Source of the DNA: Sipunculus nudus | Lineage: Eukaryota; Annelida; Sipuncula; Golfingiida; Sipunculidae | Assembly (NCBI GenBank): GCA_026874595.1 | Contig: CM049317.1 | Coordinates: forward strand, 50,432,401-50,496,400 | Direction of reading: 5' to 3' | Length of the DNA stretch: 64,000 bases | Shown here: piece after piece, positions 20,905 through 64,000 of the stretch | How positions within the stretch are numbered: position 1 is the first letter of the stretch | How the letters are laid out: each line of letters begins with the position of its first letter | Made by a program: the position numbers and the translations under genes | The notes under the pieces: model-generated | Seen by the model: the letters and a program-made list of their open reading frames with translations, nothing else | Told to the model about the DNA's origin: nothing | Databases searched by the model: none

Positions 20905-21135
20905 TTTTGGTGTGGGTCCGGCTCATGATCCGGATGATCTAGGAAGGACTTTCAGGAATATTCACAAATGTGCATTCACATATGCACGATTGTACATGGG
21001 AATATGGCCAGAATAAGTGAGTGAACCTGGGATTATGGGTCATTAAGGGAATGAAAACACGCATTGCGGAGTACCCCACATATAAGGACCGCCAACAAAA
21101 GAGTGGCCTGCATTCTAGAGAATGCATACTTCTAG
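20905..21135 (+). mobile_element. Helitron-like short repeat, copy 1 (left arm)
   Basis: The 3' end has hairpin GCATTCTAGAGAATGC (21,110-21,125), six bases, then CTAG followed by T, as in Helitron termini. The 5' part has a GGTCCGG...ATCCGG stretch. The 5' terminus could not be fixed. Its mirror copy reaches the window end at 63,864-64,000. Confidence 0.6.
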
Positions 21136-21863
21136 TTTATAGTTAATTTTATATAAAAAAAATCTTGTTACGCCACCAAAGAAATAATTATATGTAATTG
21201 TTTTACTGACTCTGAGACCAAAATCAGCAATAATGATCGGGACACGATAAGATGAAAAGGAGACGGGCTTGGGTAAGTGGAAGACTTCTATTAAACTGTC
21301 AGACCAATTGGCCTAACAGCATGTACTTTTACTTGCCGCTGGTACAATGAGTATTTACACGTGCAATGCCGCCAAATCAGTGACCGAATCGTCTACATGT
21401 CTTGACTTCCTACCAGCTAGCGCATGCCCCCCCCCCCCCCCATTTTAAGGATTTTTTTAAAGATTCAGAACAAGATCACAACATTGCAACAACCTTCAGC
21501 CGTGAGAACACGACTTATTAGGCATTTATGACGGACTGGTAATCTATCTTACTTGAGTCGTTACACAAGCCATACGGGGAAACTCCTTGCAAAGTTAGGC
21601 CATCCATCCTGTTGCATCTGTATCTTAAAAAACAGCCGGTAATCTTAATATGAGGCTACGAAAAATGAATAACCACGAATGAATAACACAGACCAAAGTT
21701 CAAATCCATCTCTTTTATAAAAAGTCCTGCTTTGGTTCATTCGGTCAGAAATTAAAGGAAGATGCAAGGGAATTTAACAATATGGTGAATTTTAGCGGAA
21801 ATTTTCTCGAACCTGATATATGTGTTGTTTGCATGTATACATACATGACTTATGATTGTGTTA

Positions 21864-22154
21864 CAGCCTGGTATTGTTCTCAGGCACAGCCCGAGTCAAT
21901 GTTAACCCCACGCATCAAACATTTTAATTTTAATTTTCATCTTTTCAAGAAGATCAAATAGTACAATTTTGATAAGATTTCCTTTGTTATATAGTGCTGT
22001 TACCTGTTTAGCATAAACATTGTGTTATTTTCAAGCCTTTTCCCTGATCGTATGATATTTTTATCGAAACATACAACAACAACAAATTAAAAAAATCGCC
22101 AGCCCGCTGATTTTTTAAAACAAAGAGCCTGAGAACCATACCTTTTTTTGGTCT
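21864..22154. mobile_element. Diverged MITE copy, left arm
   Basis: Shares GTTCTCAGGCAC and GAGCCTGAGAACC inverted ends and TA flanks with the family, but is shorter and more diverged, with shortened termini. It is present in both arms, so it predates their separation. Confidence 0.75.
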
Positions 22155-22294
22155 TACTGGATTTAAAAAAAAAAGAAAAGACAGGATAAGTGTTTAGGTA
22201 TCCAAATGTCCTGTTATTTAACCGGGAATGATGGGGGGGGGGGGGGGGGGGGGGGGTGTAATTTGTAAACTACACATATTTGAACAATGGACAA

Positions 22295-23630
22295 TTAGGA
22301 TTATTTAGGAAGCACTTATAACCGATTCCGGGGATTGTACTAATTGAGGATTAGTTATGCATAATCATAAACTGTTTTGGTATATATCTAGATAAATAGA
22401 TAGATTGATTGATAAACAGTGGTGCATGGTGTGCCAATTATTTCATTATATCGATAATTGTTCGTTTTCTATTCTAAATGATTAAATTGATTACATTTCT
22501 GCGATAATACGGTGAGGTATGCGCATCCAAAAAGGCATGTTATCTCGATAAAACATTCTAATTAACACAGAGATATAAGAAAGACGGGACACTAAACAGC
22601 AAACAGCATTAAAGTTTATCCTTGTGCAACCAATAAGTATCAACAATATGATCAGTACCTTGACCTTCCATGCGTGAGGTACAGGATGTATACCTAAAGT
22701 ATTGACCAAGTTAATTCAGTGCAAGTCTACACAGCAAATTTCACGGTAATACAGATGAAATATAAAATAATCGATTAACGATTGATTATCGTTTTGGTCT
22801 TTCAGTCATCGAGTATGATTTTAAAATCGTTTCCTACAACTACAGCAAAACATTAGACAACACACATTGAATGAAACATCACAAAATTATGCCAGTGACA
22901 CTTACTTGTTCCCTCAAAGTACGAAGAAAGTTTGAGAAATATATAATATCCCTGGGCGAAAGCAATATTGCCTTCCTTTTTGTCACTGGAGAATAAAGTT
23001 AATATATGTTGTTAGTTTAAAGTTAACTTGCCAGACTACCTATTTCACGTTTGACTTAGATGTCTCAGCTTTGTTTTCTTGGTAACATTTAGCCACACAG
23101 GGATGACCCAGTTTGGATAGACCTGTACGTCACTAGCCATGTGTGTGCGTATTCATGATATTTTCATGTGTTCGCGCATACCTGACGCCTGATTGCCTCC
23201 GCCAGAAGAGTTGCGTTCATTCCCGTTCGCGCGCGTGTGTGTGTGTTTTTGTGTGTGTGTGTTCACAACAAAGCTTATCCTACCCGTTTCAAACCCTTCT
23301 AACCAGATATTATGTTAATATAATAAAATCATGTTTGTTGAAGCTCTCAGGAGAACTGAACATTTTTTTATGTCGGACTCTCTGTCATGATGCACACTCG
23401 TAATAGCCGTCAGGTGGCACTACAATCGCTCCTAAAAAAGTGAAATTTCTCGGAAATAACCCCCATAGGATACACTGTGAATCATTAACGCGAATATTTA
23501 AGACAAAACACTGCATATCTGTGGCATGGCCATGCATCGGAGACGATGCGTGACAATCTTTTTTACCAATTATAATGTATATTAACTCACGCAATCAATC
23601 ATGAACGGAATCCAATGAAGTTTTCAATTA
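22295..23630. other. Left-arm-specific block
   Basis: This 1.3-kb stretch has no match in the right arm, where a different 427-bp block occupies the same place (62,272-62,698). Flanks match well on both sides. It has a GT/GC-rich patch near 23,228-23,262. No gene or transposon ends recognised. Confidence 0.75.
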
Positions 23631-23664
23631 GGGCACTTCGGGAATTGGTCAATGAAGATTAAAT

Positions 23665-23920
23665 GTTGGCGTCGGTCCGGATCATTATCCGGATCTAGGA
23701 AGGACTTAAAATAATATTCCCAAATGAGCAGTCACATATGCCCGATAGATCATGGGAATATGGGCCAAATAAGTGTATGCGAACCCTTGTTGGGGAACAT
23801 ATGCATCAATGAACCTGGGAATATGAGCCCAATAAGTTGAAAACACGGGCTGCGGAGTACCTCACATTAAGGACCGCCGAAATGGCGGAGGCCTGCATTC
23901 ATGAGAATGCGTATTTCTAG
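23665..23920 (+). mobile_element. Helitron-like short repeat, copy 2 (left arm)
   Basis: Same family as 20,905-21,135. The hairpin is GCATTCATGAGAATGC (23,895-23,910), then six bases, CTAG (23,917-23,920) and T. The near end has an inverted CCGGATCATTATCCGG. A mirror copy lies at about 61,983-62,240 on the minus strand. A partial, more diverged relative appears at 10,598-10,775. Confidence 0.6.
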
Positions 23921-24179
23921 TTTGGTCTGGTTCCATAGTCTGATGTTGTTCCACAGTCTGCTCCCCTCTAATAAATATTTGCCTTAGCAAACCATAGCAA
24001 CCTTCAGAACGGTCAAATAAACCTAACAATACAAAATAATTCTCTGAAACTTTGTCTCATTTTTTTCAATTGACAGTCGAGACCAGTTACATCAAGTTTC
24101 CCCAAATTGCTTTTTTACACTTCTTAAAATGGTGCATCGTACTATATATTTTGAGAATCTGGGCATGGGCCACAAACAT

Positions 24180-24360
24180 GTTATTCCGTTCTAAACATTG
24201 CCGATTCAGGTCCCCTTGTCACCGCAAATAGATTCTCGCCTCGTCGATGTCCTCGGAGAACTTTCATGTTGCATATCCCCTGTTTGACCCTCCTTCAAGA
24301 TTATTTCTTCCAGTTTCTCGAAACCGCTCATGGGGGCTGTCATTTTGCTTACACACTTAA
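24180..24360 (-). repeat. MTAPMSGF repeat, copy 1 (left)
   Basis: On the minus strand it carries a frame beginning MTAPMSGFEKLEEIILKEG. It then frameshifts relative to the right-arm copy (61,558-61,721), which stays open for 54 codons. Related copies are at 33,169-33,370 and 33,830-34,045. Confidence 0.5.
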
Positions 24361-24399
24361 ACTTGAATGACGTTACAGTTCACTACGCTCTTTACACAG

Positions 24400-25130
24400 C
24401 GCTTTAACTATAGGCCTATACTCCCTATTATCGTAAGCGCTGTTATGAACTCGTATCCTGAATTGCTACACCATAGGGGAGCACTGTATTTTTGTCCAAT
24501 CAGATGAAGCCTTGTGCTGGAAGACACGGCCAAGCGAGGAATACACGGAGCCAATCATGTTCATTTCGTTTTGAGTGACAGCTCATCGCCCTGGTAACCA
24601 TTGAACAGGCCACAGGCTCAAAGACAATTGCCCCAGACGTGGTATGCTTAGGGCCATTGGCACATAGGATGCCCGGCCGGTGAGTTGTAATTCAAACGAT
24701 ACGTAACAACAAAGGCTGCGTGCACACCTCACTGGCTGGTTTCAGTTCTGCAGATAACAGATACATGGCTACCCTAACACAGTCATAATGTCATAATCGA
24801 ATCGGTCGATGATGCGAGAATACAGAGGGAGCAATTAAAATTTGACCGTTAACTCTCACCAAGCGGCGCTTGAAGCGCAGCTATGGGCGGAGCCAGGATG
24901 CCTGTCGCGTGTTTGTTTATTGGCATCTGGTTGGCTGCTTGTCAAATCATACGCACGTTTTTTTCAGCGGACAGCGAACCGCCATCTGGTCTAAATATAT
25001 CATAAACGGTCAAAGCTGGCAGCGTGAAAATCAGTTGCTTCTTTAGAAGCGCAAGATTTCCGCTGCCTCGGGAGAGTACAGTTCACATGTCAAAATGGTT
25101 ATACGCTAGCGTCAGCAACGCAAAGGTACA
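24400..25130. promoter_or_regulatory. Promoter-like GC-richer stretch (left arm)
   Basis: Less AT-rich than its surroundings, with several CCAAT/ATTGG motifs (for example near 24,495-24,560 and 24,600-24,660), a GGGCGGAGC box near 24,885 and TGACAGCT near 24,579. It is conserved in the right arm (about 60,780-61,520). No transcript is identified, so this is suggestive only. Confidence 0.25.
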
Positions 25131-25970
25131 TTCAGATTCAGCCATAATTTATTAATGAAAATGTTTCATTATTAACACCCGTATAATGATTCCTTTATAG
25201 GGATCAAGACTAGATCAAAAAAGTAACATTACTATATGAGTAGCATCCCTGGCAAAAAAAAAATCATAAATCTTAAATCGATCCAAATGTTGTTTTATAT
25301 TCATGTCAGACCCCTTAAAGTATACATCGTTTTAAAATTTGCACAGTGAATACATGGTGTTCATGTTTTTGATTATCATTCGTTTTAGCATTTTAACATT
25401 TTGAATTTTTCTTTTTAGATTTTAAAGAGTACGCTGTTTAAGCACCCAGTAGCATCAAGCCATTTTTAATGGGCTATAATATGAAGCAACACGACTAACG
25501 CAAAAACCTTTTTCTGTTTTTCTCTATTATGTTACAATTTAACTTAAAACTAAAGTTTTAAATATTATTTCAGAAAATATTTATAAATTTCATTTTCAAA
25601 CAAAAAAGACAAAATACTATTAATTTTCTTAATATTAAAATATATACATATATATTACTTTCTGCAATCCATATAATATTTTATCAAAATAATCTAGGTG
25701 TAACATTACCAACGGTAGAACAAGTATTTCAGCAGCACCTTTATAGTCAGGTATTTACGTATAATCCTGAAGTAGTTCAACATATCTACACGACATTTCA
25801 TTTTTTTACATGCTCTTGAAGTTCAAAACAAACAATAGACTATGTCACCTGCATTTACTAATTTCTTTGTAGTACCCCTTCTTTATAATTGGGCTTGGCT
25901 ACCAAACAATATAAATTCGGTCTTTTAGTATTCACTTTGAGCTTGTACCTGTTCATCCATTTATTTATAG

Positions 25971-26170
25971 TTACTGCTCATTGTTCTGTTGATCTACAGC
26001 TGCAGTTTCCCCTCGTGAAGACGCAGGATTAAAAGTAATGTTGGCGATGTAATCATCAGCAAACCCATAGACTGATGCGGACGGCGGGTTCTCATTTATA
26101 AAGTAGTGCCATGGGCCCCAGTAGCTCCCTCCTTGGACGGAGCATTCAAGAGCATGCGATGAGGAGTTAG
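25971..26170 (-). CDS. Unrecognised last exon F (left)
   Basis: A 200-nt open exon after an acceptor-like TTTAG, ending in TAA with AATAAA just beyond. It codes about 65 residues, including NSSSHALECSVQGGSYWG and GFADDYIANITFNP. The right-arm copy keeps frame, acceptor and stop with few changes, which argues for real coding. It is preceded by two bases, so the upstream exon must end in phase 1. Looks extracellular (N-glycosylation-type NIT, a Cys). No family recognised. Confidence 0.45.
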
Positions 26171-26455
26171 CTAAATTTACATTTAAAATAGTATATCATA
26201 ATAAAAGAAAATTATCTAAAGTTTGTATACCACCAGCTAAAACACTTTACCTGATTTAAAATGACATTATTTTTGGGTCTAATATCAAATATAAATGATT
26301 TTTGGATTGATTCAAATGAGGTTTTTTTCCCTAGCGATGTTATCTTAATGCATTATAGTCATTACATCTGGGTCATATGGTACGTGCGAGTTGACAAATA
26401 TAGAAATTATGCGGCCGATTTTAGTGGTCATTCACAAAAATCATCCTCAACAACT

Positions 26456-26603
26456 ATGAGCGGCGACTCCGTAAAACTTATTTTCCTTGGTATGGCCTTG
26501 GTGTTATTATATCTCTCTGTTTCGTGTGCCTGGTTGATATATATTCCGCACATTATTCCCGCTGTCAATAACACCCGCTGCTCGTTGTACCAAGGACTGA
26601 AAG
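26456..26603 (+). CDS. Unrecognised first exon E with one membrane segment (left)
   Basis: From the ATG at 26,456: MSGDSVK, then a hydrophobic span of about 23 residues (LIFLGMALVLLYLSVSCAWL), then IPAVNNTRCSLYQG and a GTATGT donor after AAG, phase 1. Topology resembles a signal anchor or small type-II-like membrane subunit with a Cys-bearing ectodomain. A likeness to BK-channel beta-type subunits is only topological. Open in both arms. The downstream exon is not found on the same strand in this arm. Confidence 0.45.
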
Positions 26604-26639
26604 GTATGTTCCCCCCATTTTCTCCTTTGAGCTAATCAG

Positions 26640-28560
26640 ATTTACCTAATATACCAGTAAATGAATCAAAGTGATTTGTATACTATAACGCGGAGATAAA
26701 CGGGGGGTCCAGTTTTATTTGCATGCTCTGCCATTACACAATGATATAGCTACACTACACCACAGTTCGCCTCGCCCATTGCCTATAGTCCGCCTTACCC
26801 CTTCATGTCCACCTTGTTTTTTTTTTTTTTGCTATAAAAATGATTATTATTTACATTTCAAGGGAAACAATTATAGTGTAGAGTAGAGGATTATAGAACC
26901 TTATTTTCAACAAGGTTATCAAATACCTACCTTACATCTTATTTAACAAACAGAATTATTTGATAATATGAGAAATCAGTCTACGTTTTACAACACATCA
27001 GACCCACTTATGGTGGTCAAGATCATTGGTCACTTGAAAAAACAGCCTACTTTGACAGCTGCTGAAAAAAAAATAACCAGCTAAAACAAAAATGGCTACT
27101 CATGCAGAAACACATCATATCTGCAAGAACATTGTGTAGAGACTAAAAAGTTGTGAAACATCATAAACTTGGGATTTATTGTAAAATTCCTAATTAGGTT
27201 GTAACTACCATAAGTAGTTTTTCCAGGAATTAATTGTAAAATATAAACATTTTTAGAAAATAATCAGCAGAAAACTGGTGGACAGCAAGTGGTGAATCGG
27301 ACTATATAGTTAGGCTGAAGGGTGTGAAAAATTTGGAATCGAGTATTCGATAGCCATTACCCGGCTCATGCAGACTCACTGAAAAACGTTTTAATGATAC
27401 TATAAAAAGTTACGTTTTGTCCCAATTGGGACAACTCATATATAAGATTTAAATTAAAAAAAAACCATATATCATTTTGGCTGACTACCAAAGGAAACAG
27501 TCGAGACACATATATATATATATATACTTCCTAAGTCGTATCCACCTGTTTTATACGTTGTTATGGTTCTCCGTGTAAGTAAACACAATCCACTTGTATC
27601 TGTTTCTTTGAAAAAGTTCAATGTATACAAAGCCTGGTTTCATACGATAACGACAAAATCAGGTAATATTTTCAGATAAGTTGTGGTATACCGAATTTTA
27701 AAGCCAGCTTTTCACTTACTCTTTCTGTAGATTTTTTTTTTTCTGGCTTACTCTGCGTACATATTAAAGAACTGTTTGTATTTCCTCTTACGAAATATTC
27801 TTATTACGCATCTGTGACGCATGTATAAGCTTGTTTGAAGATCTACGTACATGCCATCTACATGCGACTACTGGCTTCTATTCCATGATGAATAATGAAC
27901 AAAGCATTTGAACCACTCAAATGTCTTGCGCGCACTTGTTTTAGGCGGCCTCCTACACGTATCTGTATTGCACTATTCAGATCACACGTTTAAAATTGCC
28001 AGAAGGACGTCGAGATGTTTATGAAAAAAAGCTATTCCAACTTTGATTAACCTCCATCGCCTGCGAGTCATCTCCCCATCCTTGAAGATAAATTGACGCC
28101 ATTGGAACTGGTACATGTCTGTTCATTATTCATGAAATAGACGACAAGCGGCAATCAAAATATCTGATAGCGTTCAGCGGCCTGGTCATTGATAGAAGGA
28201 AGATGATATTTAGGAATGTTCTAAAATATAAAATTATAGAGAAACTATCAAATCTGATCGCAGACTAAGTGAAAAGGGTGTAGTCTCACTGAAGAATCAG
28301 TTTTCAGGATCAGAACTACGTCATTCTTTAATCTTAGTTTCATGGCAAAATCATTCTTTAATAATAATAGTTTCAAATTCTTATTACTATAGTTTTGAGA
28401 AAATACACGATAATCTTAGGCTACGTGGTACTATATGGTGAGATTAAATTTAATTAAACTGAGATTATGCATCATGGTCTAGGATAGCTTTCACTCAAAT
28501 TTCCAGGTCCATGTTCTAAGTCCGCCCATGATTATCGCACGCCAGAGAACTTATGAATAA
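26640..28560. other. No gene seen (left arm)
   Basis: AT-rich sequence conserved with 57,345-59,270. Includes a short repeat related to 3,690-4,180 (27,720-27,980). No further exon found downstream of E. Confidence 0.5.
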
Positions 28561-28564
28561 CTAA

Positions 28565-29637
28565 CTAGCTGATAAACCCGGTTTACCGGGCTTTTTACCG
28601 GGTTCGGGATATGTTTAAATTGACAGGATTGTTTGATCTTTTTTTATTTTAAAAATTAAAAGAAAAAAATATAGATTTTCAGTGGTTTACAGTCTCAATT
28701 AGATATATACAAATATTTAGTAAACATTTATTTTGTGGCGCTATGCTCGTGGCAAGGAATTCACACACCGGTATGTTGACCTTGAAGACCTGGTCAGTGG
28801 TGATTTTTACATTAATTTGTGGATTGGAATGAAACGCAGGGGCCCTCCGGTTTTCGGTGACCTTTGACTGGTTACTATTCTTGGACGTTTAAAGTACAGG
28901 TAAATGTGAGGAAGACATTAATTCTAGATAGCTTAACATAACCTCTAATTTAATCGAATAGGAAGACATGAAAGATGAATTAAATGTAAGTTTAAAGGCA
29001 AGGAAACTGTTTCTGAAGAGAGAAACGGAAATGTACATACCTCGTTAGTAGCAGAAGCGGACCCCAGGGGAGTCCAGGAGGTCGGTCCCCCTTTCAGCTG
29101 CAACCTTTTTTAATCGTATCAGACCAATTTTGAGACCCATCCCAACCCCAACCTTTTTTTTCCGGAAATGGGGACCTTGTATTGGGTTTTACCATTACCC
29201 TCCTGGGTTGAACCCCTCCTTTTCGTAAAGCGAGCCAGAGTCATGTGTTTTTCACATTGACTGACCACACACGTGAGTCAGAGCCTTTGTTAAATGTCAG
29301 CCCAAAAATGCATAAATCCGTCACTGAAAGCAAGGTTATTCATATGCACGGTAGTCCTGAAATCGGCTTATCGGTTTGAGGTGACCACAAAGAATATCCG
29401 GTCTTTGCCGAAGGCAGTTCGGCTGTTCTCGGTGTTAGCCTCCGCTCATATCAGAAACCACGCAAAAATCACTCAAAATGAGGTGTACAATAAAAATTAT
29501 TTATTCTAATAACGATTATGTCACTGAGGGAACAATAACCTTTAAAATGAGGTATGGCACCGTATTATACGCTACGCGGTTTCAGAAAACATTGCGAACA
29601 GAGGTGGACCGGATTCCTTTTATAAGTATTAGATAGA
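28565..29637 (-). mobile_element. Non-autonomous Helitron (1,073 bp), left arm only
   Basis: On the minus strand the element starts TCTATCTAATACTTATA and ends with a GC hairpin (CCCGGTAAACCGGG), eight bases, then CTAG. It is flanked by A on the 5' side and T on the 3' side with no target duplication. Those are the Helitron rules (5'-TC, 3' hairpin then CTRR, insertion between A and T). The right arm shows the intact empty site at about 57,330-57,352, and the arm offset changes by exactly 1,073 bases across it. There is no Rep/helicase coding, so it would depend on helper proteins from elsewhere. Confidence 0.9.
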
Positions 29638-29754
29638 TACCCTGTAACCGATGTGCTCGTAAGAGAAAGGTTCTTAGGTAGAGAAGCTCCGCATGTCGCA
29701 CATCTGAATTATTACTTTAAACTTTATTTATTTTACACGGATAGCACAACTATA

Positions 29755-29951
29755 GGTATAATAATTGTATTACGAGGCACTCTTCATGGCTCGCAATGGT
29801 GGCGTTCGGTAGTATAGGGGTGGAGGAAACCACCGACCTGGCCACCAGTGTACTTGCCACTCAAACCACTCTCATAGTTTAACCGGGGATCGAACCCGAT
29901 TCGCAAAAGGAGAGAGCCGACCGTTTTACTAACCGATTTACCAGGCCTTGA
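29755..29951 (-). mobile_element. tRNA-related SINE, copy 1 (left)
   Basis: On the minus strand it has a B box GGTTCGATCCCC and a body with GGTTTCCTCCACCCCT and GAGAGTGCCTCGTA-like blocks, shared with 36,377-36,600. The mirror copy is at about 57,054-57,225. It borders the Helitron on one side and gene A on the other. Confidence 0.65.
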
Positions 29952-30059
29952 ATCGAAGTACCATGGAATTTATAATACTACATATTGTACTCATTGAAAA
30001 AAGTAACCTAACCAATAGATCATTCACTGTATTTTTTCCTTTTCCCCAGCTGTACAAGT

Positions 30060-31475
30060 ATGGATTACTTGGCATTGCTCATGATAACGTGTACCTTGTC
30101 CGGCATTGCACATGGGGCAATTGAGGAATCAACTTGGAGGAAGGACTTTGACATAGAATGCCCAGACGGTAAGACCGTAAGGATGATCAGAGGTATGTTC
30201 GATGCATATCGTGGCGTAAAGGATCGTCTTTATGTAGTCCTTTGTGAGAAACATATCGACATCACGTCAGACTGCTACTGGACTGGTTTCAGGAATGAAT
30301 ACGGAGGTCCCATGAGCTTCTTCTGTCACCCTGATCACGTGATAAGAAGCATAGCCAGTATCTATGACAAAAATGCCGCAGATCGAAGGTACATAATTGT
30401 TTTAATGAAGCTGTTTTTGTTTTATTAAGGTATTTAAATGGAACACTTTTAACATTATTGTTAGAAGTATTTGTTGATATAGCCGGTTAAAACCAAGCAA
30501 GTAACGATTAAAATGATTATTTTTTTAAATGATCCATAGATCCATATATACTTTTGAACATCGACACTGTTCCATATAAACTAAAGGGTGGTCTTCAAAT
30601 GCAACTAGAAACATTGAAATACCAATGTAAATTTTAAAAATAAATCAAATTTAAATATATTTGAATTTAATAATATGAAATTTAAACGGGTATGCGACAA
30701 TGCGATAAAAGTGTCAAATATAAAGGCATTTAAATGTCCAAATGTTTCTAAACAGAAACACAGTGTTATATAAGGTGGTCTATTAAGCATTATAACTGTT
30801 GTTCATGAAGCATGGGAAACAGCACACTATTTTGTCAGTTGATTAGCACTGTTTTGTCTGATTTCCAACTTGATGTTCTTTTTGGACTGTTTGGAATTCA
30901 ATCAGCAGCCATAATAACCCCCCCCCCCCCCACACACACACACACATTTTATAAACGTATGGATATAAACAAAGCGTATGGCAGGTGCATTATGGAATCA
31001 GCGTGTGAAAGGCTCAAGAGATTATCTGTATTTCACACACGTAAGTTATCGATATAAACCCCTGTTACTTTTTTTTCAGGTTTAATTTTGAATGTTGTAA
31101 ACAAGCCAATAAGATGCAAGGACACTGCCACTTCACCAAGAAGTATATCAACAAATATGGCCGTATTATGCGCTACACTGCTCCAGAGAACAAAGTCATC
31201 AGGGGCTTCAAAAGTATTTATAATGCATGGATGGGGTAAGGTCGTACCACTCAGTACTTGAATAGCTGCTTTTTATTAGGGCATTTTGTCTCTATTAGAA
31301 CAGACAAATAACTGGCACGTGCTACCCGTGCAATGGTTTTTTTTGTTTTTGCAATGTTGTAATAATAATATTTCAGACTGCCCCGAGCATAATTTCCATG
31401 CGGTTGGCGTTAACGAGACGCGTAAGCTGACAGAAATCCCCTGGTCGATGTTGCACTAACCGAGAGGAACCTTAC

Positions 31476-31552
<77 letters not shown>

Positions 31553-32655
31553 AGAAAAGACCAATGCCATCAACGAGGAAGGGTGTGGTAGGCGGATACC
31601 TTCTACCGAATTGGGGGAAAAATTTAAAATATATACTTTCCTTGGTACATATAATGAATTTCAACGGAAGAATGCACTACTGCATGAATTCTTTTTGTGT
31701 CTGTTGATTTTTTAACTGCTGACAGACTTTGGTGTTAATATGAGCTGACTGAGGCCCCGGTTATGAGTACTGGTAGAGGGGAACTAGGTGAGGATGCGAG
31801 GATATTGGATGGAGGGGGGGGGGGGGGGGCTGAGATGAAGATGCCGCAAAGCGACAGAGGCGAGGCTTGTGAAGTACCGCGTGTCGAAGTCACGGAACGT
31901 TTTAGGAGGGGGGAATGGGGTCTGTCCTCCTCAGTTATAAGGGTAGAATAAAAAATGTCTCCCCTTATTTTATGGGGAATGAAACACATTACAGATAAAC
32001 TTCAATGCCGTCAGTATCGTCATATTTTTGTCAATATTCTTTCAATTATATGCATATATAATATAACATTCAGAAAATTTAGCATATTGCCTGGGCAATT
32101 TGCCTCTTTGAAATGTCATAATGTCTTGGCCCTTTGAATATTTAAATCAGAACCTAGCAAAATTATTTGTATATTGTATGCATAAAGCCATTATATTACA
32201 CCCATCTGAAACCCTTCCGAACAAAAAGTCATCCGCAGTAACTACATCGGTAATTAAGTTTGTCATTGGACCTAATACATAACGATGCAAGGCGCAAAGT
32301 CTGGGGTTGCTTTTCTTTATTAAGCGTGTATTATTTTAGTCCTAAGATGTTTTGGTCGGAAAAGATGGGGGCGCCACTGCCACCCTTTAAATCCGTCTCT
32401 TGTATTTCATGTAGCTAGTTATAAGTCATGTATTTAATTATGGTGACAAATTCTTATCTGACAAAGATAAAGAAGTATACATAGGCCTTGCACATTAAAA
32501 TGTCATAGCACGCCTCCAATACACAAAACTGAATGTTAACACTAATAAACAATACTAAGTTATTGTACAGTGGTTTTATAAGCTTAATTATACCGTATCT
32601 TGGTTTCAGTGATCGTGTGTGGAAGGTTTATGTTTGTGAACAAATGGAAGAGTAA
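30060..32655 (+). CDS. Dermatopontin-like secreted protein, gene A, left copy
   Basis: There are three coding exons: 30,060-30,388, 31,080-31,235 and 32,610-32,655, with GT donors and AG acceptors and both introns in phase 2. The product is about 176 aa. Residues 1 to about 19 form a signal peptide (MDYLALLMITCTLSGIAHG). The body shows the dermatopontin pattern: paired Cys, a CYWTGFRNEYGG block, and three DR-aromatic-x-x-x-C type motifs, one per exon (DRLYVVLC, DRRFNFECC, DRVWKVYVC). Family knowledge: dermatopontins are small disulphide-bonded extracellular-matrix proteins that bind proteoglycans, and related proteins occur in mollusc shell matrix. A tract ending in CCCCAG just before the ATG (AG at 30,048-30,049) looks like an acceptor, so a non-coding 5' exon probably lies upstream. 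AATAAA is at 32,728-32,733. Matrix or shell function is inferred from family only. Confidence 0.88.
31490..31554. repeat. GT then GA microsatellite in intron 2 of gene A
   Basis: A (GT)n tract followed by (AG)n. The right arm differs here, with AC and long TA tracts at 55,460-55,552. Confidence 0.9.
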
Positions 32656-33077: not shown

Positions 33078-33145
33078 GAGGCATCGGCTGGGTTTGAACC
33101 GGGGACTTTCAGCTCCGAACCACTAGGCTACGCCCTACCCGGTAT
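33078..33145 (-). mobile_element. Short tRNA-like sequence (left)
   Basis: A box TAGCCTAGTGG and B box GGTTCAAACCC are both good, but they are only about 20 bases apart, so there is no anticodon arm and no functional tRNA. It probably heads another SINE. The mirror is at 53,518-53,585. Confidence 0.55.
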
Positions 33146-33168
33146 TTGTATATATACATGTACGCAAA

Positions 33169-35973: not shown

Positions 35974-36015
<42 letters not shown>

Positions 36016-48778: not shown

Positions 48779-48822
48779 TGGGGAAACGTAACGTTATACC
48801 ACTCAGTATTAGGTCAGGAAAG

Positions 48823-52264: not shown

Positions 52265-52501
52265 ATGCTCAAAATACTAACAACTCACACCATCATCGCA
52301 ATTTTTATTCTTATCTCGACGACTGGCGGCATATCGAGACCTGTGCAAATTGTGGCCGATCATTTGGTCTGCAATTACTTGTTCTACACAAAATTAGATG
52401 AAATACTACCAGCAAGATCAAAGATCCGTTATGCCTATGATGGTAATGGCATCTATTATGGTAAAACATCTCGGTACCCTCAGAAAAAGAAGGATAGATA
52501 A
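52265..52501 (+). CDS. Possible small secreted peptide, intact only in the right arm
   Basis: A 78-aa frame with a plausible signal peptide (MLKILTTHTIIAIFILIS, cleavage near ISRP), then one Cys and a basic tail. In the left arm the ATG is ATA and an in-frame TAA occurs mid-way, so either the left copy is dead or this is a chance frame. No family recognised. Confidence 0.25.
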   Translation: MLKILTTHTIIAIFILISTTGGISRPVQIVADHLVCNYLFYTKLDEILPARSKIRYAYDGNGIYYGKTSRYPQKKKDR

Positions 52502-54005
52502 TAACCATTTTCTCTGACACGGTGACACAGACTTGATATACAGGCGTTATAAATACGCAGTTAAGGAAAGAATGATGCCGAGATCCACTCAAGCCTCGAA
52601 TTTGCTTATTTCCTACTATAGATGAAGGATATGGGCGTGGTCCAAAATATGCGTTATTCCGTTCTATCCTTTACCATTACTCATCCTCTTGCCACCGAAT
52701 TTTCTCCGAAGATAGATTCTCTCATGGATACTGTCCTCGTATTAATTTCTCATCGCTTATCGTTTATGGAACTCTGACGGGATAAATACTTCCAGTTTTC
52801 GGAAACGTCTCATTGGGGCTGCTAGTTTGTAACACAATCTGAAGGGTCGTATTTGGGAAGACCGTTTCTCTGCTTTGAAAGTCATGTGACCTTGGGTCTG
52901 TACATAAATTTGGAGACGGAACGGGGAGAGGAGGAAGTTAGTTTATCATTATTTGATTGTGACCTATCTCGGAATTAGTTTCGTAGAAAGTGGACCAACA
53001 CCGGTTGCGCCACCTGTGTCTTACAAACACAAACAAGTAACAATACGATTTTGGTGCTGATGGCAGTTCCTGAAATATTCGGGAACAGTCATTGTATTAA
53101 GAAACAACTGACAAATGGAATGGTTTACGATGACACACATATAGGATAAGTGATAAAAAAGTTCTTTGGGCTCACATACAACTATGTTATCATATTTGAT
53201 GCATTATATCTTTGCTTACAAAATTTTCTGAGGCCAGCTGCAGGGGCTTTGGAGCTATTTAACAACAATGCGCCACGGTGTCTATAGAAATCCTACAAAT
53301 AATTTGAGGATATGAGCGTGGTCCAAAAAGAGCGTTATCCCTTCTAAACTTAACCCTAAACTCTGTCCATACATGGATTCTGACCTGAACGCTCCCCTCG
53401 GAGTACTTACGTGTCGCATCCCCTGGGCCCTATCGAACCCTGACAGTATTATTACTGCCAGGTTCTCGAAACCGCTCATGGGGGCTGTCATTTTGCGTAC
53501 ATGTATATATACAAATACCGGGTAGGGCGTAGCCTAGTGGTTCGGAGCTGAAAGTCCCCGGTTCAAACCCAGCCGATGCCTCGATGGCATAATGGTGAAA
53601 TATCGCTAGAAAATCATTGATTCACTCTTATGTCTTAACGGCAGGTTATGACTTCTGGATTATTTCTATCCCCGTGCATATAAAACCTGAAATACAGAAG
53701 GCTTAATACTAACATATCATCTTTATCGTATGAATACCTTCATCCTCAGTCAATAGATAGTGCCAACAACAGGCCATGGGCCTTTCCTTGAAAAAGGGTC
53801 TTCGCATGTCAAAAGTAAGGATAAACAGATAGTAAAAATATGATCCGGCAACGAGACTTAGAAGTCTACTCTCTTTCACAAAGCACACAGAAGAATAATT
53901 TATATTCATGTACAAGTTTTAAAGCAGTTTATTTGATTAATTCTGAATATCAGGTGACGTGGAACATCCATGCGGTATGACCAAGGGAACTGCCAAGTGA
54001 TGGTT

Positions 54006-55514
54006 TTACTCTTCCATTTGTTCACAAACATAAACCTTCCACACACGATCACTGAAACCAAGATACGGTATAATTAAGCTTATAAAACCACTGTACAATA
54101 ACCTCGTATTGTTTATTAGTGTTTACATTCAGTTTAGTGTATTGAAGGCGTGCTATGACATTTTAATGTGCAAGGCCTATGTATACTTCTTTATCTTTGT
54201 CAGATAAGAATTTGTCACCATAATTAAATACATGACTTATAATTAGCTACATGAAATACAAGAGACGGATTTAAAGGGTGGCAGTGGCGCCCCCATCTTT
54301 TCCGACCAAAACATCTAAGGACTAAAATAATATACGCTTAATAAAGAAAAGCAACCCCAGACTTTGCGCCTTCCATCGTTATGTATTAGGTCCAATGACA
54401 AACTTAATTACCGATGTAGGTACTGCGGATGACTTTTTGTTCGAGAGTGTTTCAGATGGGTGTAATATAAGGCCAAAAAAAATTAAAGGTTTGGTTCTCA
54501 GGCACCGCCCGCATCAATTTTATACCCCCGCATCAAAAATTTTTATTTTGATTTTCAATAAAAACTTTCCAATTTTGAGCTGCTGCCGCTCCGACATTTC
54601 TTTCAAGAAGATAAAACCACACAATTTCCTTTGTTTTGTAGTGCTTTAACTTATTTAGCAAAATAAAACTGTTATTTTCATGCTTTTCCCTTATCATTTG
54701 ACATTTTTATCGAAACATACCAAAAAATTTAAAATAAAAAAAGCGCCCGCCCGCATTGATTTCTGCAAAAAAGTGCCTGAGAACCATACCTTTTTTTTTA
54801 TTTTGGCCTAATGGCTTTATGCATACAATATGCAAATAATTTTGCTAGGTTCTGATTTAAATATTCAAAAGGGCCAACACTTTATGACATTTCAAAGAGG
54901 CAAATTGCCCAGGCAATATGCTAAATTTTCTGAATATTATATTATATATGCATATAATTGAAAGAATATTGACAAAAATATGACGATACTGACGGCATTG
55001 AAGTTTATCTGTAATGTGTTTCATTCCCCATAAAATAAGGGGAGACATTTTTTAATCTACCCTTATAACTGAGGAGGACAGACCCCATTCCCCCCGCCTA
55101 AAACGTTTCGTGACTTCGACACGCGGTACTTCACAAGCCTCGCCTCTGTCGCTTTGCGGCATCTTTATCTCATCCCCCCCCCCCCCCCCCTCCATCCAAT
55201 ATCCTCGCATCCTCACCTAGTTCCCCTCTACCAGTACTCATAACCGGGGCCTCAGTCAGCTCATATTAACACCAAAGTCTGTCAGCAGTTAAAAAATCAA
55301 CAGACACAAAAAGAATTCATGCAGTAGTGCATTTTTCCGTTGAAATTCATTATATGTACCAAGGAAAGTATATATTTTAAATTTTTTCCCACAATTCGGT
55401 AGAAGGTATCCGCCTCCCACACCCTTCCTCGTTGATGGCATTGGTCTTTTCTCTCTCTATACACACACACACACACTCACACACACACATATATATATAT
55501 ATATATTTATAAAT

Positions 55515-55556
<42 letters not shown>

Positions 55557-56939
55557 TGGTTCCTCTCGGTTAGTGCAACATCGACCAGGGGATTTCTGTC
55601 AGCTTACGCGTCTCGTTAACGTCAACCGCATGGAAATTATGCTCGGGGCAGTCTGAAATATTATTATTACAAAATTGCAAAAACAAAAAAAAAACCCATT
55701 GTACGGGTAGCACGTGCCAGCTATTTGTCTGCTCTAATAGAGACAAAATGCCCTAATAAAAAGCAGCTATTCAAGTACTGAGTGGTACGACCTTACCCGA
55801 TCCTTGCATTATAAATACTTTTGAAGCCCCTGATGACTTTGTTCTCTGGAGCAGTGTAGCGCATAACACGGCCGTATTTGTTGATATACTTCTTTGTGAA
55901 GTGGCAGTGTCCTTGCATCTTATTGGCTTGTTTACAACATTCAAAATTAAACCTGAAAAAAAAAGTTACAGGGGTTTATATCGATAACTTACGTGTGTGA
56001 AATACAGATAATCTCTTGAGCCTTTTACACGCTGATTCCATAACGCACCTGCCATACGCTTTGTTTATATCCATACGTTTATAAAATGTGTGTGTGTGGG
56101 GGGGGGGGTTATTATGGCTGCTGATTGCATTCCAAACAGTCCAAAAAGAACATCAAGTTGGAAATCAGACAAAACAGTGCTAATCAACTGACAAAATAGT
56201 GTGCTGTTTCCCATGCTTCATGAACAACAGTTTTAATGCTTAATAGACCACCTTATATAACACTGTGTTTCTGTTTAGAAACATTTGGACATTTAAATGC
56301 CTTTATATTTGACACTTTTATCGCATTGTCGCATACCCGTTTAAATTTCATAATGTCAAATACAAATATATTTAAATTTGATTTTTTTTTTAATTTGCAT
56401 TTGTATTGCAATGTTTCTAGTTGCATTTGAAGACCACCCTTTATTTTATATGGAACCGTGTCGATAGATCATTCAAAGAAATTATTATTTTAATCGTTAC
56501 TTGGTTTGTTTAAACCGGATTTGACAACAAATACTTTTAAAAATAATGTTAAAAATGTTCAACTTAAATACCTTTATAAAACAAAAACAGCTTTACTTTA
56601 AACTATGTACCTTCGATCTGCGGCATTTTCGTCAAAGATACTGGCTATGCTTCTTATCACGTGATCAGGGTGACAGAAAAAGCTCATACGACCTCCGTAT
56701 TCATTCCTGAAGCCAGTCCAGTAGCAGTCAGACGTGATGTCGATATGTTTCTCACAAAGGATTACATAACGGCGATCCTTCACGCCACGATATGCATAAA
56801 ACATACCTCCGATCATCCTTACGGTCTTCCCGTCTGGGCATTCTATGTCAAAGTCCTTCTTCCAAGTTGATTCCTGAATTGCCCCATGTGCAATGCTGGA
56901 CAAGGTACACGTTATCATGAGCAATGCCAAGTAATCCAT
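54006..56939 (-). CDS. Dermatopontin-like secreted protein, gene A', right copy
   Basis: This is the mirror copy of gene A, with exons 56,611-56,939, 55,797-55,952 and 54,006-54,051, identical in length (329, 156 and 46 nt) and phase. All splice sites and the reading frame are preserved, so it looks functional. Amino-acid differences are scattered, for example the first DR motif reads DRRYVILC, and the Trp near the end of exon 2 is replaced by Arg. The second intron carries a TA-flanked MITE at 54,470-54,808 that gene A lacks. It has the same signal peptide and Cys pattern, hence the same likely secreted matrix role. If the palindrome is an assembly artefact this would be the other allele. 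Confidence 0.86.
54470..54808. mobile_element. TA-flanked MITE with long terminal inverted repeats, right arm only
   Basis: This 339-bp element has ends AGGCCAAAA and TTTTGGCC; the inverted repeats extend about 35 bp inward to the shared GGTTCTCAGGCAC. It is flanked by TA on both sides, and the left arm has the single TA empty site at 32,190-32,200. It lies in intron 2 of gene A'. TA duplication and terminal inverted repeats suggest mobilisation by a Tc1/mariner-type transposase, but no coding remnant is present to confirm this. Confidence 0.88.
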
Positions 56940-57053
56940 ACTTGTACAGCTGGGGAAAAGGAAAAAAAAAAACATACAGATAATAATCTGTTAGTAAGGT
57001 TACTGTTTTCATCAAGTAAAATATTTAGTGGATTCCATGGTACTTCGATTCAA

Positions 57054-57225
57054 GGCCTGGTAAATCGGTCGGCTCTCTCATTTAGCGAATCGGGTTCGAT
57101 CCCCGGTTCTGCTATGAGAGTGGATTTTAGTGACACTTCCACTGGTGGTTTCCTCCACCCCTTAAGACTACCGAAAGCCACCACTGCGAGCCATTGAGAG
57201 TGCCTCGTACTATAATTATTATACC
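57054..57225 (+). mobile_element. tRNA-related SINE, copy 1' (right)
   Basis: Mirror of 29,755-29,951, with a short internal deletion near the A-box side. Confidence 0.6.
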
Positions 57226-59309
57226 TATAGTTGTGCTATCCGTGTAAAATAAATAAAGTTTCAAGTAATTATTCAGATGTGCGACATGCGGAGCTTCTCT
57301 ACCTAAGAACCTTTCTCTTACGAGCACATCGGTTACAGGATATTAGTTATTCATGAGTTCTCTGGCGTGCGATAATCAGGGGCGGACTTAGAACATGGAC
57401 CTGGAAATTTGAGTGAAAGCGGTCCTAGACCATGATGCATAATTTCAGTTTAATTTAATTTAATCTCACCATAAAGTACAACGTAGCCTAAGATTATCGT
57501 GTATTTTCTCTAAACTATAGTAATAAGAATTTGAAACTATTATTATTAAAGAATAATTTTGCCATGAATCTAAAATTAAAGAATGACGTAGTTCTGATCC
57601 TGACAATTGATTCCTCGGTGAGACTATACACCCTTTCCACTTAGTCTGCGATCAGATTTGATAGTTTCTCTATAATTTTATTTTTTAGAACATTCCTAAA
57701 TATCATCTTCCTTCTATCAATGACCAGGCCGCTGAACGCTATCAGAAACTTTGATTTATCGAGCCGTTCTGTCGTCTATTTCATGAATAATGAACATATA
57801 CATATACCAGTTCCAATGGCGTCAATTTATTTTCAAGGATGGGGAGATGACTCGCAGGCGGTGGAGGTTAATCAAAGTTGGAATAACTTTTTTCATAAAC
57901 ATTTCGATGTCATTCTGGCAAATTTAAACGTGTGATCTGAATAGTGCAATACAGATACGTGTAGGGGGCCGCCTAAAACAAGTGCACGCAAGACATCTGA
58001 GTGGTTCAAATGCTTTGTTCATTATTCATCATGGAATAGAAGCCAGTAGTCGCATGCAGATGGCATGTAGATCTTCAAACAAGCTTATACATGCGTCATA
58101 GATGCGTTATAAGAATATTTCGTAACAGGAAATACAAACAGTTCTTTAATATGTATGCAGAGTAAGCCAGAAAAAAAATATACAGAAAGAGTTAGTGGAA
58201 ACCTGGCTTTAAAATTCGGTATACCACATCTAATCTGAAAATATTTCCTGATTTTGTCGTTATCGTATGAAACCAGGCTTTGTATACATTGAACTTTTTC
58301 AAAGAAACAGATACAAGTGGATTGTGTTTACTTACACGGAGAACCATAACAACGTATAAAACACGTGGATTCGACTTAGGAAGTATATATAAATATATAT
58401 GTGTCTCGACTGTTTCCTTTGGTAGTCAGCCAAAATGATATATATATATTTTTTTAATTTTTAATCTTATATATGAGTTGTCCCAATTGTGACAAAACGT
58501 AACTTTTTATAGTATCATTAAAACGTTCTTCATTGAGTCTGAGCCGGGTAATGGCTATCTAATACTCGATTCCAAATATTTTACACCCTTCAGCCTGACT
58601 ATATAGTCCGATTCACCACCTGATGTCCACCAGTTTTCTGCTGATTATTTTCTTAAATGTTTAAATTTTACAATTACTTCCTGGGAAAAAAAATACTTAT
58701 GGTAGTTACAACCTAATTAGGAATTTTACAATAAATCCCAAGTTTATGTTTCACAACTTTTTAGTCTCTACACAATGATCTTGCAGATATGATGTGTTTC
58801 TGCATGAGTAGCCATTTTTGTTTTAGCTGGTTATTTTTTTCAGCAGCTGTCAAAGTAGGCTGTTTTTTTCATGTGACCAATGATCTTGACCACCATAAGT
58901 GGGTCTGATGTGTTGTAAAACGTAGACTGATTTCTCATATTTTCAAATAATTCTGTTTGTAAGGAGGGTATTTGATAACCTTGTTGAAAATAAGGTTCTT
59001 TAATCCTCTACTCTGCACCATAATTGTTTCCCTTGAAATGTAAATAATAATCATTTTTTATAGCAAAAAAAAAAAACAAGGTGGACATGAAGGGATAAGG
59101 CGGACTATAGGCAATGGGCGAGGCGAACTGTGGTGTAGTGTAGCTATATCATTGTTTAATGGCAGAGCATGCAAATAAAACTGGACCCCCCGTTTATCTC
59201 CGCGTTATAGTATACAAATCACTTTGATTCATTTACTGATATATTAGGTAAATCTGATTAGCTCAAAGGAGAAAACGGGGGAAACATACCTTTCATTCCT
59301 TGGTACAAC

Positions 59310-59457
59310 GAGCAGCGGGTGTTATTGACAGCGGGAATAATGTGCGGATAATATATCAACCAGGCACACGAAACAGAGAGATATAATAACACCAAGGCCA
59401 TACCAAGGAAAATAAGTTTTACGGAGTCGCCGCTCATAGTTGTTGAGGATGATTTTT
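59310..59457 (-). CDS. Unrecognised first exon E' with one membrane segment (right)
   Basis: Mirror of 26,456-26,603 with an intact frame and GT donor; small changes include Ile to Tyr after the membrane span and Leu to Met near the exon end. Confidence 0.45.
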
Positions 59458-59725
59458 GTGAATGACCACCAAATCGGCCGCATAATTTCTATATTTGCCA
59501 ACTCGCACGTACCATATGACCCAGATGTAATGACTATAATGCATTAAGATAACATCGCTAGGGGGGAAAAAAAACCTCATTCGAGTCAATCCAAAAATCA
59601 TTTAAATTTGATATTAGACCCAAAAATGATGTCATTTTAAATCAGGTAAAGTGTTTTAGCTGGTGGTATACAAACTTTAGATAATTTTCTTTTATTATGA
59701 TATACTATTTTAAATGTAAATTTAG

Positions 59726-59925
59726 CTAACTCCTCATCGCATGCTCTTGAATGCTCCGTCCAAGGAGGTAGCTTCTGGGGCCCATGGCACTACTTTATAA
59801 ATGAGTACCCGCCGTCCGCATCAGTCTATGGGTTTGCTGATGATTACATTGACAACATTACTTTTAATCCTGCGTCTTCACGAGGGGAAACTGCAGCTGT
59901 AGATCAACAGAACAATGGGCAGTAA
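59726..59925 (+). CDS. Unrecognised last exon F' (right)
   Basis: Mirror of 25,971-26,170, same length and frame. Differences include Tyr to Phe in the GGS-aromatic-WG stretch, an Asn/Tyr change and Ala to Asp before NIT. AATAAA is at 59,931-59,936. Confidence 0.45.
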
Positions 59926-61557
59926 CTATAAATAAATGGATGAACAGGTACAAGCTCAAAGTGAATACTAAAAGACCGAATTTATATTGTTTGGTAGCCA
60001 AGCCCAATTTAAAAAAAGAGGTACTACAAAGAAATAAGTAAATGCAGGTGACATAGTCTATTGTTTGTTTTGAACTTCAAGAGCATGTAAAAAATGAAAT
60101 GTCGTGTAGATATGTTGAACTACTTCAGGATTATACGTAAATACCTGACTATAAAGGTGCTGCTGAAATACTTGTTCTACCGTTGGTAATGTAACACCTA
60201 GATTATTTTGATAAAATATTATATGGATTGCAGAAAGTAATATATATATGTATATATTTTAATATTAAAAAAATTAATAGTATTTTATGTCCTTTTTGTT
60301 TGAAAATGAAATTTATAAATATTTTCTGAAATAATATTTAAAACTTTAGTTTTAAGTTAAACTGAAACATAATAGAGAAAAACAGAAAAAGGTTTTTGCG
60401 TTAGTCGTGTTGCTTTATATTAAAGCCCATTAAAAATGGCTTGACGCTACTGGGTGCTTAAACAGCGTACTCTTTAAAATCTAAAAAGAAAAATTAAAAA
60501 TGTTAAAATTCTAAAACGAATGATAATCAAAAACATGAACACCATGTATTCACTGTGCAAATTTTAAAATGATGTATACTTTAAGGGGTCTAACATGAAT
60601 ATAAAACAACTTTTGGATCGATTTAAGATTTATGATTTTTTTGGCCAGGGATGCTACTCATATAGTAATGTTACTTTGGTGATCTAGTCTTGATCCCTAT
60701 AAAGGAATCATTACACGGGTGTTAATAATGAAACATTTTCATTAAAAAAATTATGACTGAATCTGAATATACCTTTGCGTTGCTGACGCTAGCGTATAAC
60801 CATTTTGACATGTGAACTGTACGCTCCCGAGGCAGCGGAAATCTTGCGCTTCTAAAGAAGCAACTGATTTTCACGCTGCCAGCTTTGACCGTTTATGATA
60901 TATTTAGACACCAGATGGCGGTTCGCTGTCCGCTGAAAAAAAACGTGCGTATGATGTGACAAGCAGCCAACCAGATGCCAATAAACAAACACGCGACAGG
61001 CATCCTGGCTCCGCCCATAGCTGAGCTTCAAGCGCCGCTTGGTGAGAGTTAACGGTCAAATTTTAATTGCTCCCTCTGTATTCTCGCATCATCGACCGAT
61101 TCGATTATGACATTATGACTGTGTTAGGGTAGCCATGTATCTGTTATCTGCAGAACTGAAACCAGCCAGCGAGGTGTGCACGCAGCCTTTGTTGTTACGT
61201 TTCGTTTGAATTACAACTCCCCGGCCGGGCATCCTATGTGCCAATGGCCCTAAGCATACCACGTCTGGGACAATTCTCTTTGAGCCTGTGGCCTGTTCAG
61301 ATGGTTACCGGAGCGATGAGCTGTCACTCAAAACGAAATGAACATGATTGGCTCCGTGTATTCCTCGCTTGGCCGTATCTTCCAGCACAAGGCCTCATCT
61401 GATTGGACAAAAATACAGTGCACCCCTCTGGTGTAGCAATTCAGGATACGAGTTCATAACAGCGCTTACGATAATAGGGAGTATAGGCCTATAGTTAAAG
61501 CGCTGTGTAAAGAGCGTAGTGAACTGTAACGTTATTCAAGTTTAAGTGGATAAGCAA

Positions 61558-61722
61558 AATGACAGCCCCCATGAGCGGTTTCGAGAAACTGGAAGAAATA
61601 ATCTTGAAGGAGGGTCAAACAAGGGATATGCAACATGAAAGTTCTCCGAGGACATCGACGAGGCGAGATCTATTTGCGGTGACAAGGGGACCTGAATCGG
61701 CAATGTTTAGAACGGAATAACA
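61558..61722 (+). repeat. MTAPMSGF repeat, copy 1' (right), 54-codon frame
   Basis: Open from the ATG at 61,558, reading MTAPMSGFEKLEEIILKEG and onward to a TAA at 61,720. It belongs to a dispersed family of which three copies lie in each arm. Whether it is a protein-coding exon family or a non-coding repeat is unclear. Confidence 0.4.
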
Positions 61723-61982
61723 TTTTTGTGGCCCATGCCCAGATTCTCAAATTATATAGTACGATGCACCATTTTAAGAAGTGTAAAAAAGGCAATTTGG
61801 GGAAACTTGATGTAACTGGTCTCGACTGACATTTGAAAAAATGAGACAAAGTTTCAGAGAAAAATTTAGTATTGTTAGGTTTATTTGACCGTTCTGAAGG
61901 TTGCTATGGTTTGCTCAGTCAAATATTTATTAGAGGGGAGCAGACTGTGGAACAACATCAGACTATAGAACCAGACCAGACT

Positions 61983-62240
61983 AGAAATACGCATTCTCAT
62001 GAATGCAGGCCTCAGCCATTTCGGCGGTCCTTAATGTGAGGTACTCCGCAGCCCGTGTTTTCAACTTATTGGGCTCATATTCCCAGGTTCATTGATGCAT
62101 ATGTTCCCCAACAAGGGTTTGCATACACTTATTTTGCCTATATTCCCATGATCTATCGGGCATATGTGACTGCTCATTTGGGAATATTATCTTAAGTCCT
62201 TCCTAGATCCGGATAATGATCCGGACCGACGCCAACATTT
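61983..62240 (-). mobile_element. Helitron-like short repeat, copy 2' (right arm)
   Basis: Mirror of the element at 23,665-23,920 with the hairpin and CTAG end conserved; ordinary substitutions only. Confidence 0.6.
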
Positions 62241-62322
62241 AATCTTCATTGACCAATTCCCGAAGTGCCCTAAAAATTTCATAAGATTTCGTACATGATT
62301 GCGAGAGTTATGTTGTATACTA

Positions 62323-62661
62323 TCAAACAAACACACCTATATTATGTAAAATCTGATAACTTTTATTTGGGGAACCAATACACCAATCAAATTTGGCAGA
62401 CATGTTGATTATGTGATTGTAAATCTCGCGTGTTGAAGGCTTTCTCTCTCTGTGATGAGATGAATTGGTATTTTCTGCTATGTCCCGAATAAACTTGATT
62501 TGTAGAATATGATCAACTGTATCATACATTAAACGTGTGTTACTTGAATGGTTTATTTTCAAAATGGCTTCTAATGCAAATACAAATCGCATAATTAGCC
62601 TGCTTAATGTAAAATCCAATGCGTCAGCAGATTCACTGTTTATTTTATTACTCATTATCAT
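62323..62661 (-). CDS. Unrecognised 112-aa frame in the right-arm-specific block
   Basis: The frame fills most of the 427-bp block that replaces 22,295-23,630. It starts with Met and codes a mixed-composition, mildly basic protein with an EIYNHIINMSAKFDW segment. There is no signal peptide, and I recognise no family. It may be a fragment of a mobile-element protein or a chance frame. Confidence 0.25.
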   Translation of the reverse strand: MIMSNKINSESADALDFTLSRLIMRFVFALEAILKINHSSNTRLMYDTVDHILQIKFIRDIAENTNSSHHRERKPSTREIYNHIINMSAKFDWCIGSPNKSYQILHNIGVFV

Positions 62662-62828
62662 GCATAATATCTATGTCAATGTAAAACCTGACCCTTGGGT
62701 CCATTGTTCAAATATGTGTAGTTTACAAATTACACCCCCCCCCCCCCATCACTGCCGGTTAAATAACAGGACATTTGGATACCTAAACACTTATCCTGTC
62801 TTTTCTTTTTTTTAAAATCCAGTTTGTA

Positions 62829-63120
62829 AGACCAAAAAAAGGTATGGTTCTCAGGCACTTTGTTTTAAAAAATCAGCGGGCTGGCGAATTTTTAAATCTT
62901 TTTTTTTTTGTATGTTTCGATAAAAATATCATACGATCAGGGAAAAGGCTTGAAAATAACACAATATTTATGCTAAACAGGTAACAGCACTACATAACAA
63001 AGGAAATCTTATCAAAATTGTACTATTTGATCTTCTTGAAAAGATGAGAATCAAAATTAAAATGTTTGATGCGTGGGGTTAACATTGACTCGGGCTGTGC
63101 CTGCGAAAAATACCAGGCTG
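62829..63120. mobile_element. Diverged MITE copy, right arm
   Basis: Mirror counterpart of the copy at 21,864-22,154, TA-flanked, with inverted ends around GGTTCTCAGGCAC; one end is eroded. Confidence 0.75.
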
Positions 63121-64000
63121 TAACACAATCGTAAGTCATGTATGTATACATGCAAACAACACATATATCAGGTTCGAGAAAATTTCCGCTAAAATTCACC
63201 ATATTGTTAAATTCCCTTGCATCTTCCTTTAATTTCTGACCGAATGAACCAAAGCAGGACTATTTATAAAAGAGATGGATTTGAACTTTGGACTGTGTTA
63301 TTCATTCGTGGTTATTAATTTTTCGTAGCCTCATATTAAGATTACCGGCTGTTTTTTAAGATACAGATGCAACAGGATGGATGGCCTAGCTTTGCAAGGA
63401 GTTTCCCCGTATGGCTTGTGTAACGACTCAAGTAAGATAGATTACCAGTCCGTCATAAATGCCTAATAAGTCGGTTCTCACGGCTATAGGTTATGTTGCA
63501 ATGTTGTGATCTTGTTCTGAATCTTTAAAAGAATCCTTAAATTGGGGGGGGGGGGGGGGGGGGGAAGCGCTAGCTGGTAGGAAGTCAAGACATGTAGACG
63601 ATTCGGTCACTGATTTTGCGGCATTGCACGTGTAAATACTCATTGTACCAGCGGCAAGTAAAAGTACATGCTGTTAGGCCAATTGGTCTGACAGTTTAAT
63701 AGAAGTCTTCCACTTACCCAAGCCCGTCTCCTTTTCATCTTATCGTGTCCCGATCATTATTGCTGATTTTGGTCTCAGAGTCAGTAAAACAATTACATAT
63801 AATTATTTCTTTGGTGGCGTAACAAGATTTTTTTTTATATAAAATTAACTATAAACTAGAAGTATGCATTCTCTAGAATGCAGGCCACTCTTTTGTGGGC
63901 GGTCCTTATATGTGGGGTACTCCGCAATGCGTGTTTCCATTCCCTTAATGACCCATAATCCCAGGTTCACTCACTTATTCTGGCCATATTCCCATGTACA

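Follow-up and report, generated by a model that had tools for sequence, protein, structure and literature searches.

A large inverted repeat carrying dermatopontin genes in Sipunculus nudus is probably an inverted segmental duplication

Two inverted arms of ~60 kb each, carrying dermatopontin genes and flanking a short spacer, occur on one of the large contigs of the Sipunculus nudus assembly. On grounds of parsimony, the arms most likely represent a real inverted segmental duplication of ~60 kb. The stretch analysed here, referred to as the window, comprises 64,000 bp (C12:50432401-50496400), and together with 100 kb of flank on each side it forms 264 kb of sequence containing no Ns. Coordinates outside 1-64000, whether negative or larger, extend the window numbering into these flanks.

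Results

Two inverted arms of about 60 kb

Self-comparison of the window revealed four main inverted blocks pairing 20991-39391 with 47269-64000 at 90.9-97.2% identity, far beyond chance, which bears out the inverted match of the preliminary description. The arms had been described there as at least 16.7 kb long and ending at the window edge; the lower bound holds, but the arms are larger and reach -21966 and 105856, so that the flank comparison rules out an arm length of only 16.7 kb. Eighteen chained blocks, from which matches of at most 88% identity were left out, pair -21966..39391 on the left with 47269..105856 on the right. They span 61,358 and 58,588 bases, with 42,172 and 42,037 bases aligned, respectively (~70% of each arm). 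Two opposite copies of more than 1 kb and above 90% identity are thus present; segmental duplications are defined by the same two figures. The coordinates of the features are collected in Table 1.

The gaps between blocks show that each arm has gained or lost sequence, in stretches of several kb. Examples are left-only gaps of 5182, 2997, 2697 and 1072 bases and right-only gaps of 338, 3393, 2305 and 4273 bases. The right-arm piece 77745-79390 is part of a high-copy dispersed repeat. We also observed that a right-only 3.4-kb piece (72954-76346) resembles -46815..-43356, outside the left arm (94.5%), and that the left arm contains tandem arrays at 6157-7184 and 12302-13616, with units of 289 bp and 277 bp; sequences related to these arrays lie in the flanks or in the right arm.

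Table 1. Positions of arms, spacer, genes and insertions in window numbering
Feature	Coordinates	Strand	Remarks
Left arm, in-window part	1..39401	+	Arm start ~ -21966
Gene A exon 1, left arm	30060..30389	+	Dermatopontin
Gene A exon 2, left arm	31081..31236	+	Dermatopontin
Gene B exon 2, left arm	36084..36245	-	Dermatopontin, by eye
Gene B open frame with exon 1, left arm	37532..37891	-	Dermatopontin
Gene C first-exon open frame, left copy	39233..39553	-	Dermatopontin; spans inner junction
Spacer	39402..41694		2293 bp; holds 5' part of gene C first exon beside left arm
Right arm, first 25 bp	41695..41719	-	Includes LINE left target-site duplication, 41705-41719
LINE retrotransposon in right arm	41726..47268	+	Endonuclease and reverse-transcriptase frames, poly-A end
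LINE right target-site duplication	47269..47283		Identical to 41705-41719
Right arm, in-window part	47270..64000	-	Arm end ~105856
Gene C fragment, right arm	47270..47427	+	Without 5' part
Gene B open frame with exon 1, right arm	48778..49137	+	Dermatopontin
Gene B exon 2, right arm	50424..50585	+	Dermatopontin, by eye
~340-bp element, right arm only	54467..54812		3-bp overlap at empty site; 88% copy at 15118-15463
Gene A exon 2, right arm	55796..55951	-	Dermatopontin
Gene A exon 1, right arm	56610..56939	-	Dermatopontin

The inner junction, the spacer and an adjacent LINE

At the inner junction, which lies between 39401 and 39402 on the left and between 41694 and 41695 on the right, 25 bp are identical between the arms and the next bases differ, bearing out the sharp boundary noted earlier. 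The uniqueness claimed for the 2.3-kb spacer was likewise upheld: with 40 of 5351 candidates scored, 52 matches were obtained in all, only one of them full-length (the spacer itself), and no second full copy was found. The remaining matches are pieces of two dispersed repeats inside the spacer.

On the right-arm side, ~31 bp from the inner junction, starts a 5.5-kb LINE with a ~6-base filler at its 5' end (41720-47268, filler included). It has eight near-full-length relatives at 96-98%, most of which start at query position 7-8. Identical 15-bp target sites flank the element, the first of them starting 10 bp from the junction. Because 25 bp of arm lie to its left and the same target site occurs on both flanks, the LINE is not a join of two unrelated sequences, and an assembly join running through it was ruled out on the same grounds. 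Since the first target site and 10 arm bases lie to the left of the LINE, it either entered an existing right arm or came with the right arm.

Private differences bear on its age. Compared with three young copies, the LINE carries 46 in 2992 positions (~3 kb; four copies), giving a bound on its branch of 1.54% that equals the per-arm figure and would permit the same age for insertion and duplication. The comparison with five copies (six copies plus outgroup, ~3 kb) leaves 25 strictly private differences in 2962, or 0.84%; the outgroup polarised 17 of these 25, and all 17 are derived on the LINE's own branch. A quick tree gives a terminal branch of 1.14%, against a per-arm average of ~1.5%. The insertion is thus probably younger than the duplication, judging from these branch lengths. 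Its position so close to one junction is odd and is not accounted for by the favoured duplication.

Divergence between the arms

Over 41,710 aligned columns the arms differ by 1272 substitutions (3.05%; 594 transitions and 678 transversions), with 199 indels within blocks. Divergence per kb is uneven (9-67 per 1000, dispersion 4.4) and shows no gradient from the palindrome centre (correlation 0.06), and one identical run between the arms, which is not an open frame, measures 534 bp, longer than the ~234 bp expected under even divergence. The unevenness and the long run could reflect weak gene conversion, uneven mutation or mixed ancestry. Palindromes maintained by gene conversion are expected to have arm identity above ~99%, and the arms, at 3.05% substitutions, lie below this level. 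These figures suggest that the arms evolve nearly independently and that gene conversion between them is weak at most.

Dermatopontin and thioesterase-like genes in the arms

The dermatopontin family is expanded in the assembly, with 73 exon-level matches among 87 scored candidates; 70 were marked over the cut-off, two of them only with neighbours in frame. At this locus the DERM domain (PF14704) scores above its curated cut-off in exons 1 and 2 of gene A, exon 1 of gene B and exon 1 of gene C, and exon 2 of gene B was identified by visual inspection of its translation, not by domain search. The preliminary description had the palindrome enclosing a dermatopontin cluster; the genes in fact sit in the arms, not between them. 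It had also called A and B intact in each arm. Exons 1 and 2 of both are indeed open on both sides, but a further exon of gene A, not located, is likely because donor-like sequence follows exon 2. No second exon of gene C was recognised in either arm.

Beyond the window, a thioesterase-like frame of 273 codons is open in both arms (-16867..-16049 and 95369..96187), with weak domain matches of 25.1 bits (cut-off 25.5) and 21.6 bits (cut-off 21). We note a third copy of this frame at -37401 to -36547, on the same strand and outside the left arm, with ~85% DNA identity.

Between the arms, pN/pS is 0.31 for exon 1 of gene A (18 changes) and 0.32 for its exon 2 (5), 0.29 for exon 1 of gene B (4) and 0.11 for its exon 2 (3), and 0.27 for the thioesterase-like frame (12), small counts whose values do not separate alleles from paralogues. 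The A, B and thioesterase-like copies in both arms are apparently still under purifying selection. The part of gene C common to both arms shows six non-synonymous and no synonymous changes, a pattern that would be expected of a decaying copy.

Duplication or joined haplotypes

The large gene-bearing palindrome announced in the preliminary description stands as a feature of the assembly. It could also have arisen if the assembler had joined two haplotypes of one locus head to head, which we consider unlikely. Divergence of 3% with large arm-specific indels and insertions would also fit alleles of a very polymorphic invertebrate, and its unevenness would fit alleles of mixed ancestry. Furthermore, just two copies were found of the arm stretches tested. 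For the inner arm (35000-39390, 40 of 8564 candidates scored), the two full copies are the two arms, no third full copy was found, and the next match is 80% over ~540 bp; a second, weaker test with 76347-77749 also gave two copies, a high-copy repeat in the query having taken most of the 40 scored places.

Alleles should, however, share flanks, and those beyond the outer ends differ. Comparison of -99999..-19000 with 102900..164000 revealed no inverted homology other than the arm ends and matches of 95 and 155 bp, and thus none of the homologous inverted outer flanks expected of a haplotype misjoin; the direct strand shows, besides a few short matches, tandem-repeat ones that reach ~1.1 kb at 68-84%. 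The structure is without Ns throughout, no leftover copy of the spacer or inner arm was found among the candidates scored, and the inner ends lie at different places on each side, which under a misjoin would demand that the second haplotype, too, be broken within gene C. A real inverted duplication is favoured, on this reading of the sequence, because a haplotype join would require additional sharp junctions within sequence that has no gaps.

Control families also speak against widespread duplication by the assembler. CCT/HSP60 and MCM sets are usually single-copy in animals. We found nine host loci, two host long-frame matches (C3, C11) and ten bacterial GroEL copies for the former, and eight host loci along with 20 small-contig matches for the latter. 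With loci grouped by eye, near-identical duplicates were absent for all 17 host loci. On C16, in contrast, there are two inverted copies of a dermatopontin cluster, 9.5 Mb apart (22250001-22270000 and 31710001-31730000); they are 98.4% identical across 12,963 columns, and the blocks flanking them match at 95.1% and 93.0%. This pair could likewise be a genuine duplication or mark inversion breakpoints, or it could be an assembly duplication, in which case such loci might be duplicated by the assembly in general.

The 1.4265-Gb assembly consists of 153 contigs. Fifteen of C1-C17 (without C6 and C10) were measured at 61-111 Mb each, and C6 and C10 are also large, with matches at C6:80.99 Mb and C10:73.55 Mb; this is compatible with 17 chromosomes. 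Among the other 136 contigs, eight sized ones, including C18, are of 52-103 kb (C73 is 57 kb), and some bacterial contigs reach megabases, as seen from match positions. Intronless bacterial GroEL genes, nine with an identical score, lie on C61, C62, C66, C72, C73, C75, C89, C99 and C74, and markers repeat ~2.0 Mb apart on C61 and C89, which suggests that a ~2-Mb bacterial genome was assembled more than once. A 149-aa GroEL fragment from small contigs has at most 67% identity among the 80 best loci shown, none of them close.

A second palindrome at the outer end

The right outer end (~105849-105856) adjoins a second inverted repeat, formed by 105850-109390 and 110225-113752. The arms of this 8-kb palindrome are 96.8% identical, with 62 substitutions in ~3508 aligned columns (1.8%), and no other copies of its full arms were found with 40 of 2798 candidates scored. 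A small palindrome abutting the outer end is odd, and both junctions of the large repeat thereby have unusual neighbours.

A multi-switch repair event could have made both palindromes. More broadly, the inverted duplication, the LINE and the small palindrome might all stem from one event tied to retrotransposition or template switching, as the LINE target site 10 bp from the inner junction and the palindrome abutting the right outer end would suggest. We regard this as highly improbable: the LINE has ordinary target-site duplications and a branch shorter than the per-arm divergence, and the second palindrome has diverged by 1.8% against 3.05% for the arms. Slightly less remote, though still quite doubtful, is a ~120-kb palindrome that arose together with the adjoining 8-kb palindrome in a single replication-based event, with occasional conversion tracts since then keeping the paired dermatopontin copies alike and the inner junction serving as a preferred LINE target.

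Discussion

Both arms with their ends, the spacer between them and the open exons are directly observed; from these we infer an order of events for the favoured inverted duplication. Continuity points to the left arm as the original, since there is no break from this arm through the 5' end belonging to gene C and on into the spacer. Probably through template switching during repair, a copy in inverted orientation would then have been inserted 2.3 kb upstream, cutting gene C in the copy. The arms would afterwards have diverged mostly independently, to 3.05% and with gains and losses of several kb each, and the LINE would have entered the right arm later, beside the inner junction. As an outcome, dermatopontin A and B and the thioesterase-like gene would each be present in double dose, while the truncated gene C decays.

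Inverted segmental duplications, or low-copy repeats, can carry members of gene families. The locus shares with them large inverted arms, a unique spacer, genes of an expanded family and independent insertions in each arm, and nothing essential differs; what it has in addition is the LINE at the inner junction and the small palindrome at the outer end. The structure suggests an ordinary, known kind of feature, an inverted segmental duplication that appears to be fairly old. The likeness to sex-chromosome palindromes drawn in the preliminary description is weak, as the arms differ by 3% and ~30% of each is unaligned. Mammalian sex-chromosome palindromes (PMC8981503) are reported to have gene-bearing inverted arms whose identity above 99% results from frequent gene conversion; the arms here also bear genes but are 97% identical in aligned columns, are alignable over ~70% and show no gradient from the centre. 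Palindromic repeats also occur outside mammals, as a report on the willow sex chromosome (PMC7023750) indicates; at the present locus, on C12, gene conversion appears weak at most. At the level of titles and abstract openings, a literature search found no work on this locus.

The locus illustrates how the case for or against joined haplotypes can be made from one assembly, even without reads. If the duplication is real, as we favour, it would provide a well-bounded case of the growth of a matrix-protein gene family by inverted duplication.
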